Shown one piece after another: positions 37,834 to 45,743 of a stretch of DNA of 64,000 nucleotides. Position 1 is the first letter of the stretch; every line of letters starts with the position of its first letter. A program made the position numbers and the translations under genes. This DNA comes from Prosthecobacter debontii (GTDB lineage Bacteria > Verrucomicrobiota > Verrucomicrobiia > Verrucomicrobiales > Verrucomicrobiaceae). The notes beneath the pieces are model-generated. The model did not search any database. It had not been told where the DNA came from and saw nothing but the letters and a program-made list of their open reading frames with translations. Location of the stretch: positions 412,709-476,708 of the forward strand of contig NZ_FUYE01000004.1 of the NCBI RefSeq assembly GCF_900167535.1, in the 5' to 3' direction.

Positions 37834-38514
37834 ATGGATACTTCTTCGCGAAACGACCTGTGGATGACTTTTCCACTCTTGAACGAATTGCCTCAGTTCA
37901 AGCATCGATTTACCCTGAGGCATCCGACGATACCTGTGGATGCAGAGAGGGCAGAGGTCGTTGCACGATTATGGGATTGGCATCACCAGCACGCCCGAGA
38001 GATGGGCTTTGAGGAGGGAGCCATGTGTATTGCCGAGCAGGTGCATGGAAATCAGGTGGCCGTAGTCGAACAGGCTCCAAACCTCCCGATTCCTGCTGCA
38101 GACGGTATTGTGACAGCTACCCCGGGCCTCGTCATTGGCATTTATGTGGCGGATTGCGGGGCCCTGTATTTGGCGGACCCTGAAACTGGCGCCTGCGGGA
38201 TTGTTCATTCGGGCAAGAAGGGGTCTGAACTTGGTATCGCTGCGGTAGCGATTCAAAAAATGCAGGAGCATTTCGGAAGTCAGCCTCGGAATATTCGAGC
38301 TCAGCTCGGCCCATGCATTCGAGTCCCCGCTTACGAGGTCGATTTTGCTTCTCAAATTCGGACTTCTTGCCTTGATGCAGGGGTCCTTCCCGAACATTTC
38401 GCCGATTGCGGAATCTGCACATCCTCAGACTTGCAGCGTTATTATTCCTACCGCATTGAGAAAGGCCGCACGGGCCGTTTGCTAGCATTACTGGGACGGC
38501 CTGCAACGACTTAA
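37834..38514 (+). CDS. pgeF: Peptidoglycan editing factor PgeF (YfiH, multicopper-type laccase domain)
   Basis: The 226-residue protein matches the YfiH/PgeF family, which removes wrongly incorporated amino acids from peptidoglycan precursors and often carries purine nucleoside activity. The metal-site blocks are EQVHGNQV, VADCGALYLAD and GIVHSGKKGSELGI, and LGPCIRVPAYEV follows. The third box is unusual: the family norm is HAGWRGT. The histidine and the glycine are kept. A second in-frame ATG lies ten codons downstream (37864). It is 17 bases upstream of ispE, so an operon is likely. Confidence 0.85.
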   Translation: MDTSSRNDLWMTFPLLNELPQFKHRFTLRHPTIPVDAERAEVVARLWDWHHQHAREMGFEEGAMCIAEQVHGNQVAVVEQAPNLPIPAADGIVTATPGLVIGIYVADCGALYLADPETGACGIVHSGKKGSELGIAAVAIQKMQEHFGSQPRNIRAQLGPCIRVPAYEVDFASQIRTSCLDAGVLPEHFADCGICTSSDLQRYYSYRIEKGRTGRLLALLGRPATT

Positions 38515-38531: not shown

Positions 38532-39371
38532 GTGGAGCTTTCCTCACCTGCGAAGATCAATCTCTGGCTACGAATTCTAGGCCGACGCGACGATGGTTTC
38601 CATGAAGTCGAGACTCGGCTCTGTCAGATCGGCATCGCTGACACGGTCCGCATTGAACAAGTCTCATCCGTGCCAGGGATCGCGTTGACCTGTAACGTCC
38701 CTGGGATCCCAGTAGATGAATCCAATCTAGCGATCAAAGCCCTTCGAGCGTTTGAAAACAAGGTAGGTAAAACGGCGGGTTGGCGGATTCATTTGGAAAA
38801 GAGGATACCATCTGGCGCAGGTCTAGGCGGCGGAAGCAGCAATGCGGCAGCGATCCTGCGTGGAGCCAATGAACTGACGGGCAGTCCTCTCAACCTCGCG
38901 GAACTCCTGGAAATAGCTGGCCATATCGGAGCTGACGTGCCCTGCTTCCTCCTGCATACAACTGCGGCCGACGGGACGGGCAGGGGAGAAAAAGTCGTGC
39001 CTGTGGAATTTTCCTGGAAACTGCCACTGGTTCTGATCAAGCCCAGCTTTCCGATTCCGACTCCCTGGGCCTACCAACGGTGGCGAGATTCTCAGGAACT
39101 GCCGGGGGTTCTTTACGCTCCTCAGATCTGTCCTTGGGGGGAAATGGTCAATAGCCTTGAGCGCCCTGTGTTTGAAAAACACCGTTTCCTGCCAGCTCTA
39201 AAAACATGGCTCCTTGAGCAGAAAGGCGTCCGCGCTGCACTGATGTCGGGGTCAGGGTCCACCATGTTTGCCATCACAGAATCTGGGGCAGATGCTGGAG
39301 AAGTAGCTGAAAAAGCCAAGGCTTGGTGCGGAGATACCGCTTGGGTGCAGCCAACGGAAACTCTCCGGTGA
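38532..39371 (+). CDS. ispE: 4-diphosphocytidyl-2-C-methyl-D-erythritol kinase
   Basis: The protein of 279 residues starts at a GTG and belongs to the GHMP kinases. Motif 1 is SPAKINLWLRILGRRDDGFH, motif 2 (ATP loop) is IPSGAGLGGGSSNAA and motif 3 is ALMSGSGSTMFA. It phosphorylates CDP-methylerythritol in the non-mevalonate isoprenoid pathway. The GTG start puts the AKIN block at the family position. It is followed by a strong terminator. Confidence 0.95.
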   Translation: MELSSPAKINLWLRILGRRDDGFHEVETRLCQIGIADTVRIEQVSSVPGIALTCNVPGIPVDESNLAIKALRAFENKVGKTAGWRIHLEKRIPSGAGLGGGSSNAAAILRGANELTGSPLNLAELLEIAGHIGADVPCFLLHTTAADGTGRGEKVVPVEFSWKLPLVLIKPSFPIPTPWAYQRWRDSQELPGVLYAPQICPWGEMVNSLERPVFEKHRFLPALKTWLLEQKGVRAALMSGSGSTMFAITESGADAGEVAEKAKAWCGDTAWVQPTETLR

Positions 39372-39660: not shown

Positions 39661-40551
39661 ATGAAAACCAGCCCCCCTCGATCCTTTATACGGCTTGCAA
39701 GCGCCTTGCTGTTGGCGGTCGCCGGGCCTGTCTCCGGCGAGATTTCGACACGGCTGACGGATACGATCAAACACGGCGTCGGCTCGATCAACCTCTTAAA
39801 AGACGTCAGCTCTGCTCAGTTTGCGCAACAAGTCACCGGCACTGGCAAACTCTTTTTCGGTGTCGATGTTAACGAAAACGCCTCAGGAAACGAATCCGCT
39901 GACTCCATTGGCGTTGCGCTTAAAGGCGTAAGTCTAACGGTGACGACCACCACAGGTACCTACGTTTTCAGTGATTTTTCGACCAGCACGACAGCGGTGC
40001 TTACCGAAGCGGGGGGAAAGCAGTCGTCCTCCTACTATACCCTTTTTGGCCAAACGGGCAGCAGCCAGATCACAGGTTCGACTGCGGGTTTTGATCTCAG
40101 CCAATTCGATGATGTGCTTTCCATCTCGAATGTGAGCTTCACGGGCGAGGTCATTTCGGCACAGATGAGTGTGACCTTGTTGAATACGGGGACAGCGAAT
40201 GACATGAACAGCAGCTTTTTCGATTTTTCGGGAGGCTATGAAGACCTTGCCTTTCTGAGTCCAAGGGATGCTTTAGCGCTAGAAAGTGCGGAGATTGGCC
40301 TCAGTGCCGCTCCCACTGGAATCATTTATTCAAACAATGCCCCCGTAGTCACCACGACGGATACAACAGTGGCTGTGGTGCAATCAGCTAAAACTAAAGA
40401 GACGACCACGTCGTCCTCTCTGATATCCGCTGCACCGGCGGCACCCGCACCTTCCGTCATTCTCGGTCTCCTCTTGGTGTTATCCGTTCTTGTGTTGGAA
40501 GGTGTGCGTAAGTCAACGAATCAAAAAACGCCCAGCCCTCCAAATCAATGA
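39661..40551 (+). CDS. Secreted protein with PEP-CTERM-like (PAPS) sorting tail, probable exosortase substrate
   Basis: The 296-residue protein has an N-terminal signal (RLASALLLAVAGPVSG), a low-complexity Ser/Thr/Gly-rich body that looks like a beta-rich surface protein, and a C-terminal tripartite tail: Ala/Pro linker with PAPS (about 262-265), a hydrophobic run VILGLLLVLSVLVLEG and a basic end (VRKS, then a short polar tail). This is the layout of an exosortase sorting signal, with PAPS in place of PEPS. Its stop overlaps the start of an exosortase gene by 4 bases, which supports the pairing. The body is not recognised. Confidence 0.8.
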   Translation: MKTSPPRSFIRLASALLLAVAGPVSGEISTRLTDTIKHGVGSINLLKDVSSAQFAQQVTGTGKLFFGVDVNENASGNESADSIGVALKGVSLTVTTTTGTYVFSDFSTSTTAVLTEAGGKQSSSYYTLFGQTGSSQITGSTAGFDLSQFDDVLSISNVSFTGEVISAQMSVTLLNTGTANDMNSSFFDFSGGYEDLAFLSPRDALALESAEIGLSAAPTGIIYSNNAPVVTTTDTTVAVVQSAKTKETTTSSSLISAAPAAPAPSVILGLLLVLSVLVLEGVRKSTNQKTPSPPNQ

Positions 40552-42038
40552 AGCCGACAGGGATGCCGTCTGGACTCAATCGTTGGTGGGGAGTGGCTTT
40601 CAGCGCTGCTATTCTTCTGATAGTCTGGCCGTGGCCGGGAGTATGGATGGGAATCCAATCCCTGCGTTTGATGATGCGTATCGGGACAATGCTTGGTCTA
40701 CCCGTCATATTTGGCGATCAACAGCTTCAAGTAGGTGGTCTAGTCGTTCCGTGGTCAGATGATTGTGCCGGAGTTGCCTTTTTTGCGATTCTTCCCTTGT
40801 TGGCATGTTGGCGTTCTTGGCGTGAGAACTCGCCTGCCACATTGTGGCAAACCTTGCTGTTACCTTGGTTGTTAGCTGCTGCGGCGAATGGGCTGCGTGT
40901 ATCAGGTATTTTGGTATGTCGTTGGTGGTTGCAGCCCGCCGTGGAGAGCTTGCAGATGCATCACTTCCTGGGATTTGTATCGCTGCTGCTTGCCGTGGTG
41001 GTCATTCTGCCCTCGTCTCATACGCGTGAGTTGAGAGTTCAAGTTTTACATCTGGCAGGGCTCTTAGCCTTATTAACTCCACAACTTCAGGCCCCAGGCG
41101 GATGGCTCATCGCGCTTTGTTCAATGGTGGTGCTTGCGATGCGAATGCGTCGAGCAGACGCCATCTCGCGACGCTTTACCAATGTTGGCTTTACCTTATT
41201 GTGGGGTCTTGCTGCAGCATGGATCGGCTTCAGCCAAATGGAGTCTTTGTGGCTTCCTTGGCTGTTGGTCTCCCCCTTCTTCAGTCGGTCATCGATGCCT
41301 CTGTGTGGCTGGCTCCTCTTGCCGGGTTGCTTACCTTTGATCGCCATCCAGCAACCTTGGTCGGGAATCATCCTTTTGCCGATTTGCGTTGTCATTCTGA
41401 GATGTCTTCACTGGAGCCCCAAGACTCCAGACGCCTCCTTTTCAATCACGCCTTCGATGTGGCGACAATCGTTCGCGACATTGGCCGTCATGCTGCCCTT
41501 TGCTGCCATCGGATTGGGCAAGCAAGCTGTCTTGCGGCAAGAAGTCCCGGTTGCTACCCTGCGGCCGCAGTTGGTTGCTCCTGCTCAGTATGAACTCCAC
41601 TTGGAGCGACAATCGCCACAGATACGAGTGGATTGGATCGGGGCTCAAGGCGGAGGCCGCCATCACACCCTACCAGTGTGCATGGCTTTTCGAGGAGAAC
41701 ATCTCCATACGGTTCATGATGTCTCAGCAGTCTGGACGGATGGTAAGGTGTGGCGGCGAGAGTATTTTCTGCATGAAGGACAACTTCTAGATCGGTATCC
41801 GGCATACTTGAAAAGCAGCTTTTGGCCGACAAGGAGCAGCGGCGTTCACCTGATTTTCTCGGCCCTCAGTCATGCGATGAGTGCCCAAGAATTTGCTGAG
41901 ATGACCGACGCCCTGGCAAAACGCGTCTTTCAGCACCAGCGAGAGCTTTATCAAACTCATGCTAAGCGACCGCTGGACCCTGCGTTAACTCTCGATAAGA
42001 CGCAGATTGCTGAAACGCATACTCAGGCGTCAGATTAA
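40548..42038 (+). CDS. Exosortase (divergent, probably substrate-dedicated)
   Basis: The 496-residue protein is mostly membrane-embedded in its first 310 residues (about eight helices). The exosortase catalytic residues are in place: C73 in DDCAGVAFF, R117 in ANGLRVSGI and H138/H139 in MHHFLGF. The family cuts C-terminal PEP-type tails at the cytoplasmic membrane and passes the protein on to the surface. The last 180 residues form an exported soluble domain (FATLAVMLPFAAIGL helix, then VWTDGKVWRREYFLHEG), in the position of an EpsI-like domain but not clearly related by eye. Start ATG overlaps the preceding stop (ATGA), so the two are translationally coupled. Confidence 0.82.
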   Translation: MKPTGMPSGLNRWWGVAFSAAILLIVWPWPGVWMGIQSLRLMMRIGTMLGLPVIFGDQQLQVGGLVVPWSDDCAGVAFFAILPLLACWRSWRENSPATLWQTLLLPWLLAAAANGLRVSGILVCRWWLQPAVESLQMHHFLGFVSLLLAVVVILPSSHTRELRVQVLHLAGLLALLTPQLQAPGGWLIALCSMVVLAMRMRRADAISRRFTNVGFTLLWGLAAAWIGFSQMESLWLPWLLVSPFFSRSSMPLCGWLLLPGCLPLIAIQQPWSGIILLPICVVILRCLHWSPKTPDASFSITPSMWRQSFATLAVMLPFAAIGLGKQAVLRQEVPVATLRPQLVAPAQYELHLERQSPQIRVDWIGAQGGGRHHTLPVCMAFRGEHLHTVHDVSAVWTDGKVWRREYFLHEGQLLDRYPAYLKSSFWPTRSSGVHLIFSALSHAMSAQEFAEMTDALAKRVFQHQRELYQTHAKRPLDPALTLDKTQIAETHTQASD

Positions 42039-42133
42039 CAATCTCTTGGTATCCATCTAGCCATCAAAGGATTCTCAAACTGATCTTTTGATCATTTTGG
42101 TTGCGAGCGGGGACTCGAGGTCTATCAAATAGT

Positions 42134-43441
42134 ATGGATGATCTCATGGCCGCTCGTGCAACGATGGCCTTTTCATTGGGATTCCACATCATCTTTGCTG
42201 CCATCGGGATGACCATGCCGTTTTTCATGTCAGCGGCTCACTATTTTTATCTCAAACGAGGAGATTCCGCCTATTTGGAGCTGACGAAACTTTGGATGAA
42301 AGGCGTGGCAATTCTTTTTGCCGTGGGCGCTGTGTCTGGCACGGTTCTATCGTTTGAGTTAGGCCTGCTATGGCCTGGATTCATGCAGCATGCTGGCCCC
42401 ATTATAGGCATGCCGTTTTCCTGGGAAGGCACAGCTTTTTTCCTGGAGGCGATAGCCATCGGCCTCTTTCTTTACGGGTGGAAACGAATGCATCCTTGGG
42501 TCCATTGGGCCACCGGGCTGGTCGTCGGTATCTCGGGGTTTGTCTCCGGTATCTTTGTGGTGGCAGCCAATGGTTGGATGAATGCTCCTTCTGGGTTCGA
42601 TTGGGTGGCTGGTGCTGCTCAGAATGTAGATCCCGTGAAGGCCATGTTTAATCAAGCCTGGCTACACCAGACCATTCATATGCAATTGGCCGCTCTACAG
42701 GCGGTCGGTTTCGCTGTAGGGGGCATACACGCAGCCCTCTACCTACGAGGTAAAGCTTGTGACTTTCACCTCCGTGCCATTAAAATCGCCATGACCTTTG
42801 GAGCCATCGCGGCTCTGATCCAACCCCTCGCAGGCCATTTTGCTGGTCAACGAGTCGCGAAATTTCAGCCTGCAAAATTGGCTGCGATGGAAGGCCACTT
42901 TGAAACCCGTGCCCAAGCTCCTCTTTACATCGGCGGTATTCCCAATGTGGAGAAACGGGAAATGCAGTGGGGCATTCCATTGCCAGGCATGCTCAGTTTC
43001 ATCGTTCACGATGATTTCAATGCCGAGGTTACGGGATTAGATCGGTTCCCAGAGGAGGAATGGCCGCCCGTGGTCATCTGCCACATCGCGTTTCAGATCA
43101 TGGTCGGTATTGGCTTTGCCATGGCTGCCGTCGCTATGCTTTATTTTTGGTTTGCTCGAAAGGGTGCCTTTCCGGCTTGGTTTCTGGGCATTCTCGTTCT
43201 TTTCATTCCCCTTGGAGCGTTGGCCATCGAAGCGGGCTGGGTCGTGACGGAGTTAGGGCGTCAACCCTGGATCATCTACGGCATTATGAAGACTCGTGAC
43301 GCAGTCACTCCAGTGCCAGGCATGGTCTATCATTTCTACCTTTTCCTCGTGTTGTATCTTGGGCTGGCTATGGCCACGATCTGGCTGTTTGCCCGACAAG
43401 TCCACGCGGCTCAAAGTCGCATCCCCCAGAAGTTTTCATGA
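42134..43441 (+). CDS. cydA: Cytochrome bd ubiquinol oxidase subunit I
   Basis: The 435-residue membrane protein has the CydA features: RATMAFSLGFHIIFA (heme b595 histidine), ELGLLWPGFM, FSWEGTAFFLEAIAIGLFLYGW, SGFVSGIFVVAANGWMN and GRQPWIIYGIMKTRDAVT. It is much shorter than E. coli CydA, in line with the short Q-loop (CioA-type) class. It oxidises quinol and reduces oxygen at low oxygen tension. GAGG upstream and the ATG at 42134 are preferred over a TTG at 42101. It overlaps cydB by 4 bases. Confidence 0.95.
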   Translation: MDDLMAARATMAFSLGFHIIFAAIGMTMPFFMSAAHYFYLKRGDSAYLELTKLWMKGVAILFAVGAVSGTVLSFELGLLWPGFMQHAGPIIGMPFSWEGTAFFLEAIAIGLFLYGWKRMHPWVHWATGLVVGISGFVSGIFVVAANGWMNAPSGFDWVAGAAQNVDPVKAMFNQAWLHQTIHMQLAALQAVGFAVGGIHAALYLRGKACDFHLRAIKIAMTFGAIAALIQPLAGHFAGQRVAKFQPAKLAAMEGHFETRAQAPLYIGGIPNVEKREMQWGIPLPGMLSFIVHDDFNAEVTGLDRFPEEEWPPVVICHIAFQIMVGIGFAMAAVAMLYFWFARKGAFPAWFLGILVLFIPLGALAIEAGWVVTELGRQPWIIYGIMKTRDAVTPVPGMVYHFYLFLVLYLGLAMATIWLFARQVHAAQSRIPQKFS

Positions 43442-44439
43442 TCGAGATCCTTATCGGTTTCATTGGGGCTTCGCTCTGGCTTTACATCCTCCTCGGAGGC
43501 ATTGATTACGGCGCGGGTATCCTTGAATTGCTACCCGCGGGTTCGCTGAGAGAATCACAAAAACGGGTCATCAATCAGGCCATGGGCCCGGTTTGGGAAG
43601 CCAATCATATGTGGCTCATTCTGATCGTGGTCATTCTTTTCATGGGATTTCCAGGCATCTTCACCACACTGATGATCTCGCTGCATCTGCCTATGTTAGC
43701 GCTACTCATCGGCATCGTGATCCGTGGGGCCGCCTTTACTTTTCGCCACTACGATGCCATTCAGGCTCCCACCAGCCAGCATGTGTATACTGTTTTGTTC
43801 GGGATTTCCAGTCTTTGGACCGCTTTTTGGTTAGGCGTTATCGCCGCCAGTCTCAACCGTGGAACCATCGATCTCGAAAGCCGTGACCCGTGGCAGGCTT
43901 ATGTCGCTCCATGGTGGGGGCTGTATCCCGTGGCGGTGGGTGTCTTTGTGATCTGCATTTTTGTTTTTCTTGCCGCTGTCTATTTGATCGGCGAGACGGA
44001 GGACAGCTCTTTACGTCATCACTTCACTCGCCGTGCTCTAAGTTTAAATTGGTTGGTGGTGTTTACCGGAGGGATGGTTTTCCTTGCCTCACTCACTGAA
44101 TCGCAAAGCTTGGTCAGTGCCTTCCTCAAATATCCCGTTACCGTCGTCCTCATGGCTCTGGCCACTGCTCTTTTTGCTGCGCTTTGGCTGTTGATTCGAG
44201 CGGAACGAATCCGCCTGACCCGAGTGGTCGCCTCAGGGCAGGTTACCCTCATCCTACTCGGTTGGGTGGCGTTATATGCGCCGAATGCAGTCCTGACCCA
44301 GCAAAAGCCCCTGAGCTTTTACGAAACAGCCGCCCCTCCGGCTACATTATGGCAGCTTGTTCTGGCCTTGCTTATTGGCAGTCTCTTCATCTTCCCCAGT
44401 CTGTTTTATCTCTTCAAGGTCTTTAAAATGAAGCATTGA
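43438..44439 (+). CDS. cydB: Cytochrome bd ubiquinol oxidase subunit II
   Basis: The protein of 333 residues with about eight transmembrane helices matches CydB: LLGGIDYGAGILELL near the N-terminus, GPVWEANHMWLILIVVILFM, IRGAAFTFRHYD and the closing hydrophobic helices. It forms the bd oxidase with the preceding subunit and does not carry heme. ATG overlaps the cydA stop (ATGA), so translation is coupled. No cydX-like small gene or cydDC is seen downstream. Confidence 0.95.
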   Translation: MIEILIGFIGASLWLYILLGGIDYGAGILELLPAGSLRESQKRVINQAMGPVWEANHMWLILIVVILFMGFPGIFTTLMISLHLPMLALLIGIVIRGAAFTFRHYDAIQAPTSQHVYTVLFGISSLWTAFWLGVIAASLNRGTIDLESRDPWQAYVAPWWGLYPVAVGVFVICIFVFLAAVYLIGETEDSSLRHHFTRRALSLNWLVVFTGGMVFLASLTESQSLVSAFLKYPVTVVLMALATALFAALWLLIRAERIRLTRVVASGQVTLILLGWVALYAPNAVLTQQKPLSFYETAAPPATLWQLVLALLIGSLFIFPSLFYLFKVFKMKH

Positions 44440-44516: not shown

Positions 44517-44876
44517 TTACCTATCTGAAAAATACGTATCCTCATGGGAATACGGCGGTGCGCAGCAGCAGAGGAAACGGAGGGTTTGTGTGGCCGTGAT
44601 CTGATGCCAAGCTCCTGGGGGGATCAGGATGGCATCACCCGGCGAGACCGTTTGTTCCGCACCATCGATTTCCATGGTGCCTGTTCCCTCAAGGATGAAA
44701 TAAAACTCCTCGCTCAGCTTATGATAATGACGCTCGGTCGGTTGCCCCACGGGCACGGTGGCCTCCGCTAGGGACTGATTCTGCACGGGGGCATTGGTGC
44801 GGTCCAGGATGCTCCGGATGGTGCTGCCATCTTTCGTGGTAAATGGAACCTGCTGAGAAAGGGGGTTGATGGTCAT
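44517..44876 (-). CDS. Cupin-domain protein
   Basis: The protein of 119 residues is a single cupin barrel. Motif 1 is ERHYHKLSEEFYFILEGTG and motif 2 is PGDAILIPPGAWHQI, with all metal-ligand positions (H, H, E and H) in place. It is likely a small metal-dependent enzyme or sugar-binding protein of mannose-6-phosphate isomerase type, but the substrate is unknown. The frame is open to 44954; the ATG at 44876 (MTINPLSQQV) keeps a gap of 57 bases to the divergent SDR gene. Confidence 0.85.
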   Translation of the reverse strand: MTINPLSQQVPFTTKDGSTIRSILDRTNAPVQNQSLAEATVPVGQPTERHYHKLSEEFYFILEGTGTMEIDGAEQTVSPGDAILIPPGAWHQITATQTLRFLCCCAPPYSHEDTYFSDR

Positions 44877-44933
44877 GCGTATGCACGCATGGTCGGAGAT
44901 GCGTGAGTGCCGCGCAAGTTTCATTGCATCCTT

Positions 44934-45743
44934 ATGACCTTCGACACCCAGCATTGCCGCGCTTTGATCACAGGGGCCTCCTCAGGTTTGGGCGCTGAGT
45001 TTGCCCGTCAGCTGGCACCTGAGGCGAGAGCTCTTTTTCTCACCGGGCGTCGCCTGGATGCGCTGGAAGCGGTGAAGGCAGAATGTTTGGCCTTAAACCC
45101 CCAATTGCAGATCCATCTCTGCACGGGAGATATCGCCACGGATGAGGGCAGGGGACGGGTCCTGGAAAACCTGCAGACCTCGGGTTTTCAGCCCAATCTC
45201 CTGATCAATAATGCAGGCATGGGGGACTACGGCACGGTGGCAACGGCAGAGGCAGGTAAGTTGCGTGCGCAGATGGACCTGAATATGACGGCTCTGGTCT
45301 TGCTGACCCATGCCTGCCTGCCACGGATGCAAAGACCGGGGGGGATCATCAACATCAGCTCGCTAGCCAGCACCTTACCCATGCCCGCCATGGCGGTCTA
45401 TGCCGCTAGCAAAGCCTTCGTCACCAGCTTTTCTGAAGCCCTCGCGGTGGAGTTGGAGCCCGACCACATCACGGTGACCTGTGTCTGCCCTGGGCCGACC
45501 CCCACTCGATTCAGCCAGACCGCTCGCCGGCCCGATGGAGAAGACACTGATCGAGGTGGGCAGGGGCTCTTGCGCATTCCTCCGCAGCAAGTTGTGGCAG
45601 AGGCCTTACAGGCACTCCGTGCTGGGCAGACCTGCCTTTATCCTGGGTTCGGTGTTCGTTGTGCTTCACGCCTCTTTCGTCATTTACCACGCGTGCTACT
45701 CCGTGTTTTGTTGCGTCGGCGTTTTGCTAAAGGCAGCGTTTGA
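44934..45743 (+). CDS. Short-chain dehydrogenase/reductase
   Basis: The protein of 269 residues has the classical SDR motifs: ALITGASSGLGAEFA (NAD(P) loop), LLINNAGMG, INISSLAST and YAASKAF (catalytic Tyr and Lys), then the PGPTPTRF box. An arginine in the LTGRR end of the second strand suggests NADP preference. It lacks a signal peptide, and the substrate is unknown. It is likely upstream of the GH75-like gene in one unit (38 bases apart). The ATG at 44934 is chosen over a GTG at 44907. Confidence 0.9.
   Translation: MTFDTQHCRALITGASSGLGAEFARQLAPEARALFLTGRRLDALEAVKAECLALNPQLQIHLCTGDIATDEGRGRVLENLQTSGFQPNLLINNAGMGDYGTVATAEAGKLRAQMDLNMTALVLLTHACLPRMQRPGGIINISSLASTLPMPAMAVYAASKAFVTSFSEALAVELEPDHITVTCVCPGPTPTRFSQTARRPDGEDTDRGGQGLLRIPPQQVVAEALQALRAGQTCLYPGFGVRCASRLFRHLPRVLLRVLLRRRFAKGSV

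Follow-up and report, generated by a model that had tools for sequence, protein, structure and literature searches.

Two questions arise when an exosortase gene overlaps the gene of a protein with a sorting-type tail: whether enzyme and tail protein are private partners, and whether the tail carries a recognition signal of its own. Both are posed by a 64,000-nucleotide stretch of the Prosthecobacter debontii genome (the whole of which is referred to here as the window), in which a plus-strand frame with a signal peptide and a tail of PAPS, hydrophobic helix and basic end runs by a four-base ATGA overlap into a plus-strand exosortase frame. The initial annotation had described this arrangement accurately, both ORFs lying where it placed them, and had taken the pair for a dedicated variant system recognising PAPS. 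We find that the pair is real and conserved, and that it is a divergent variant of a catalogued class. Within the reach of our census of this genome, we assign a probability of roughly 0.8 to its being a two-gene, one-to-one module of exosortase and substrate, a divergent offshoot of the exosortase Z (XrtZ)/PGAP-CTERM system that, judging from the sequences, would work as that system does. Features of the locus are collected in Table 1.

Table 1. Positions in the window of the target and exosortase genes and of their sequence features
Feature	Position	Strand	Basis
Target gene, putative exported surface protein, 296 aa, target-2 family (FFDFSGG motif)	39661..40551	+	ORF, family alignments
Probable Sec signal peptide, about residues 1-26 of target	39661..39738	+	translation judged by eye
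PAAPAPS motif, at the position of P[GA]APxPP in other partners	40435..40455	+	tail comparison
Putative sorting tail beyond the motif: hydrophobic helix, basic C-terminus	40456..40548	+	sequence; helix 266-285, low-confidence model
ATGA start/stop overlap of target and exosortase	40548..40551	+	sequence; also in G031
Divergent XrtZ-type exosortase, 496 aa	40548..42038	+	NF050190 308.8 bits (cut-off 475), TIGR04178 25.8 (cut-off 23)
Cys73 codon, predicted nucleophile (DCAG)	40764..40766	+	invariant 25/25
Arg117 codon (NGLRV)	40896..40898	+	invariant 25/25
His138 codon	40959..40961	+	invariant 25/25
C-terminal soluble domain, predicted periplasmic	41535..42038	+	invariant R371 H372 H373 C378 R382 G383 E405 Y420 G432 H434

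Nothing about the genes flanking the pair is unusual. Upstream lie those for a laccase-domain protein (Cu-oxidase_4, 37834-38514) and, at 38532-39371, for a GHMP kinase that we read as ispE-like; cytochrome bd subunits I and II (42101-44439) are encoded downstream. A Cupin_2 protein is also encoded near the pair (44517-44954), and very similar proteins occur near the XrtZ loci of two other genomes (G036, locus L007; G051, locus L016), which hints at an ancient common gene order.

The nearest NCBIfam model of the window enzyme is exosortase Z (NF050190), which matches residues 41-465 (E 4.8e-92) at 308.8 bits, under the curated cut-off of 475. Since no NCBIfam model for a subclass of its own matched, comparison with the known Xrt classes yields an assignment that is only approximate, and the enzyme is best read from its sequence as a fast-evolving relative or offshoot of the catalogued class. 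It belongs to the exosortase/archaeosortase superfamily by the signature TIGR04178 (25.8 bits, cut-off 23) and by its Cys/Arg/His residues, C73, R117 and H138 being unchanged in all 25 XrtZ-type proteins aligned; PF09721 is missed (22.3 bits with the protein and 23.9 in the genome search, cut-off 25.7). The second histidine originally listed among the characteristic residues, H139, did not hold up, that position being Y in all but two of the proteins, the window's, which has H, and that of G031, which has F. In the predicted structure (pLDDT 79.9) a helical part is followed by more helices to about residue 323 and then by a compact mixed domain, modelled with block-mean pLDDT up to 98; this is the extra C-terminal domain of the initial annotation, and the predicted topology suggests that it is exported to the periplasm. 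At E<=1 it had no EpsI/DUF3485 (PF11984) match in Pfam; direct profile alignment with PF11984 brings an H-x4-C resembling that of EpsI into register at a non-significant score (hhalign E 0.12, probability 0.5%). Searched against the PDB, the exosortase sequence profile gave two matches (E 0.13 and 0.92) that we take as chance, and in fold comparison neither the exosortase model nor the target model matched at E<=0.001.

The target ends in ...SAAPAAPAPS-VILGLLLVLSVLVLEG-VRKSTNQK..., its tail beyond the motif having a mean hydropathy of 2.67 and a net charge of +2, and its start is by eye signal-peptide-like. For this protein NCBIfam gave no family at E<=1, Pfam nothing beyond noise below cut-off, and the PDB no match at E<=1 to its sequence profile. 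Because the predicted model of the target is weak (pLDDT 62.5), its lectin-like top structural matches were disregarded. The tail gave no match to PGAP-CTERM (NF050189, cut-off 25 bits) at E<=1; as both cut-offs tested were missed, we do not file the window pair under XrtZ/PGAP-CTERM in the curated sense.

How many exosortases and tails of this kind does the genome hold? In its 6.29 Mb (99.6% complete), PF09721 matches four places: C21 and C19, whose exosortases each have a DUF3485/EpsI match above cut-off; the window gene; and C5, where a true XrtZ (582.9 bits) directly follows a gene whose product has Npun_F0296 and PGAP-CTERM. The PEP-CTERM model PF07589 gives 33 matches at E<=1, a level at which six of 14 control genomes also match (none over cut-off), and 11 over cut-off; the window tail is absent from all 33, on which ground the target was rejected as a known PEP-CTERM protein. 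The PGAP-CTERM model finds one match at E<=0.1, the C5 partner. A profile of 20 tails (A3) retrieves the C5 and window tails and then nothing better than E 0.38; it contains most of the tails it found, that of the window included, and scored a Haloferula tail that had been left out at only E 0.096. A held-out tail model, built without the window tail, gives that tail 3.3 bits, under chance matches in the same window. The count of tails is therefore carried by a DNA motif census that is independent of the tail profile. Using exact P[GA]APxP[PS], with Ser counted by TCN codons only, it located 39 sites (19 for the backwards-pattern control). When all 39 were read in frame, two alone, those of the window and C5, combined a long open frame before the motif with a hydrophobic run, basic end and stop codon after it. 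One further site (L237) has a hydrophobic run, but in a frame of only 70 codons. By this census the genome holds two tails of the XrtZ kind, one beside each of its two XrtZ-type exosortases, as a dedicated pairing would have it.

The same arrangement recurs elsewhere. Scanning contigs with a single protein gave no relative that tblastn confirmed; a profile scan succeeded. Of the 68 genomes of the family, 11 have an XrtZ above cut-off, as do five of 387 in a phylum sample, named carriers including Rubritalea marina and Lentisphaera marina. With loci on contigs of equal length, or agreeing in tail and lengths (G573/L162 and G657/L171), counted once, and two contig pieces of one assembly taken as one gene (G372; L179 with L181), a tail protein lies upstream of 36 of the 39 XrtZ-type genes in the set; the three without a counted partner are G051 (contig end), L159 (no tail partner found) and L175 (broken partner). 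Most partners were chosen by a relaxed motif (P/A, G/A/S, A, P, any, P, P/S/A), under which a very different tail would count as no partner. P[GA]APxPP is present in 35 of the 36 partner tails, and the one exception is PAAPAPS of the window. The idea that PAPS is a distinct recognition signal, or a recurring new motif, was abandoned on this evidence: it is a deviation of this genome's own, and, as the lone exception, it looks like a worn or degenerate copy of the XrtZ-type (PGAP-type) signal.

The body of the target defines a family, target-2, whose distribution bears directly on the linkage. Among 386 genomes of the order, a target-only search found target-2 proteins in five. In each of them the protein is encoded upstream of an XrtZ-type exosortase, next to it in three cases and with one intervening gene in two; in the phylum sample the single case in 387 is the window's own. 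Four loci (L156, L163, L180 and the decayed L175) bring the total to nine, although their linkage is no independent test because they were found via the exosortase. The pairing of target-2 with exosortase occurs in two families of the order. PGAP-CTERM (cut-off 25) is passed by two of the seven other target-2 proteins, L156 (35.1 bits) and L163 (33.4); L153 (14.8) and L180 (12.8) fall below, and L182, G031 and G067 are unmatched at E<=0.1. Among the exosortases beside target-2, those of L153 (544.1 bits), L156 (512.7) and L163 (512.6) exceed the XrtZ cut-off of 475, and those of G031 (312.5) and G067 (318), like the window's, miss it. Through these relatives each gene of the window pair connects to XrtZ, even as each falls short of its own cut-off.

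In an unrooted tree of XrtZ-type proteins only (26 rows of the 39 genes, with L180, L175 and the G372 pieces omitted as partial), the six exosortases paired with target-2, including L153, L156 and L163, occupy one side of one branch (99/97), the long rows G067b, L153 and L172 being flagged and an earlier tree having warned of long branches meeting. Mapped on the 26 rows, the target-2 label requires one change, against a shuffled mean of 5.6; Npun-type partners need three. Only the target-2 label is relied on, since np2, np3 and t4 were assigned to partners with hindsight, np2 and np3 matching the Npun-type profile as well.

Gene order within the family is less uniform than the pairing. The ATGA overlap is common to the window and G031; a 5-base gap separates the genes in G067, and in the five other target-2 loci (L153, L182, L163, L156, L180) a gene of about 350 aa lies between them. 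In other species the pairing recurs, and the overlap in one relative. The middle gene encodes a probable lipoprotein in three of the five by eye; it gave nothing above cut-off in Pfam (five of five scanned) or NCBIfam (two of five scanned), with a faint TPR hint in L163. It was rejected as a part of the window system, no homologue being found at E<=0.01 in P. debontii, G031 or G067. In Candidatus Synoicihabitans palmerolidicus (L175) the target-2 gene is frame-broken and recognised by its body, the tail was not found, and the middle gene is seemingly in pieces; the target-2 system seems to be decaying there.

The class is not a strictly one-substrate one and includes genomes with more than one putative substrate. 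G059 has a single XrtZ match and two PGAP-CTERM proteins with different bodies, the second of which (L209:3908-5365) is unlinked to XrtZ and has a long, repetitive body full of Lys and Ala. In G662 two partners stand in tandem. PGAP-CTERM scores over cut-off for more than one protein in G047, where a repetitive signal-peptide protein with GNGNGN runs and a PGAP tail lies just before XrtZ (L040/L166, L210), with a contig break inside; it seems to be a second PGAP-CTERM partner. G037 has a PGAP-CTERM protein, and no XrtZ above cut-off was found there; 0.7 kb downstream its contig (L211) breaks off within a repetitive protein of similar kind that has a Lys/Glu-rich start. Tail-like matches in Haloferula (C17, C15) and G067 (E 3.1e-4, 0.0098, 0.0276) were rejected as second substrates, being ordinary PEP-CTERM tails (APEPS, VPEPS, APEPS).

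Set beside known systems, the window pair shares with exosortase Z, PGAP-CTERM and the Npun_F0296 targets (NF050190, NF050189, NF050191) the match over most of the enzyme, the conserved residues, the upstream position of the target and an equivalent tail, and differs in its score, in PAAPAPS for P[GA]APxPP, in the body of its target and in the direct ATGA overlap. With the PEP-CTERM/EpsH system and EpsI (PF09721, PF07589, PF11984) it has in common a multi-TM Cys/Arg/His enzyme and a substrate with signal peptide and motif-helix-basic tail; its substrate is linked, however, whereas PEP-CTERM substrates are many and scattered, and PF07589 omits its tail. Archaeosortase A (ArtA) of Haloferax volcanii matches the same TIGR04178 signature; its Cys-based cleavage of a C-terminal anchor (PMC7157517) parallels the predicted role of Cys73, but the window signal is another one, and lipid attachment is reported for the archaeal enzyme. 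Among the papers searched, none was found on the exosortase Z/XrtZ/PGAP-CTERM system, and one mentions Npun_F0296.

By analogy with the EpsH proposal (PMC1569441) and with the ArtA work (PMC7157517), we infer the following course. The target would be exported by Sec, its C-terminal helix anchoring it in the inner membrane. Just outside the membrane the exosortase would recognise the Pro/Ala-rich motif, and its Cys73, assisted by Arg117 and His138, would cleave there. The cleaved target might then be released, or passed to a periplasmic acceptor en route to the cell surface. A surface role for an exosortase system fits a result from PMC12188702, in which deletion of the Nostoc exosortase CrtB altered the PEP-CTERM proteins of the exoproteome and adhesion to surface polysaccharide.

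Whether cleavage is followed by transfer is the point on which an alternative outcome has most weight: that the enzyme cleaves without transfer, the protein being simply released into periplasm or medium, is a serious if lesser prospect. Nine of 33 genomes, four of the nine having seeded the search, contain at their XrtZ loci a gene for a glycosyltransferase of family 2, whose G031 copy matches PF00535. It was not found in the window, as simple release would have it; this absence is weak because the compared stretches differ in length. The P. debontii copy adjoins the other XrtZ, at C5, and in the ArtA system cleavage is tied to lipid attachment (PMC7157517); both points tell against release alone.

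The exclusiveness of the pair is open to a different objection. The window tail might be processed by the C5 XrtZ, or the window enzyme might also act on the C5 partner, the two being partly redundant enzymes with two shared substrates. This strikes us as rather unlikely, even though P[GA]AP-x-P is common to both tails, the two XrtZ-type pairs share a locus in G031 and in G067, and G059 combines its one XrtZ match with two PGAP-CTERM proteins of different body. The target-2 exosortases form one clade, and the window tail has diverged together with its enzyme, with PAPS and a more hydrophobic helix. Moreover, in Haloferula luteola YC6886 (G196; locus L153), with four of 18 first-look candidates scored, the only XrtZ-type gene found is that of the target-2 pair, so the pair seems to work there without a second XrtZ. 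Far less credible is the proposal that the target is one PEP-CTERM protein among many handled by an EpsI-fused exosortase (C21 or C19), the enzyme next to it being a relic. Both enzymes are present, and so are PEP-CTERM tails (the 33 PF07589 matches at E<=1, 11 of them over cut-off), but the window tail is not in that set, the neighbouring enzyme is an intact open frame of 496 codons retaining every column invariant across 25 proteins, and pairs of this kind are found in two families of the order.

Beyond the one-to-one module that we favour, a bolder scheme can be drawn, which we regard as improbable: two parallel, mutually insulated XrtZ channels would operate in one cell on private substrates, motif and enzyme having co-diverged after sharing one locus, and the C-terminal domain, with its invariant R-H-H-x4-C, R, E and H, would serve as another active site, such as a transferase attaching the cleaved protein to its acceptor.

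The usual exosortase setting, for which PMC1569441 gives the figure 65 in Verrucomicrobium spinosum, makes recognition and acceptor hard to study. With one substrate, two genes and a paralogous counterpart elsewhere in the genome, the module is a compact setting in which exosortase recognition, the specificity of tail versus body and the attached group may be approached, and the nine target-2 loci suggest that it has had a stepwise history, with a degenerate motif and a missing middle gene.
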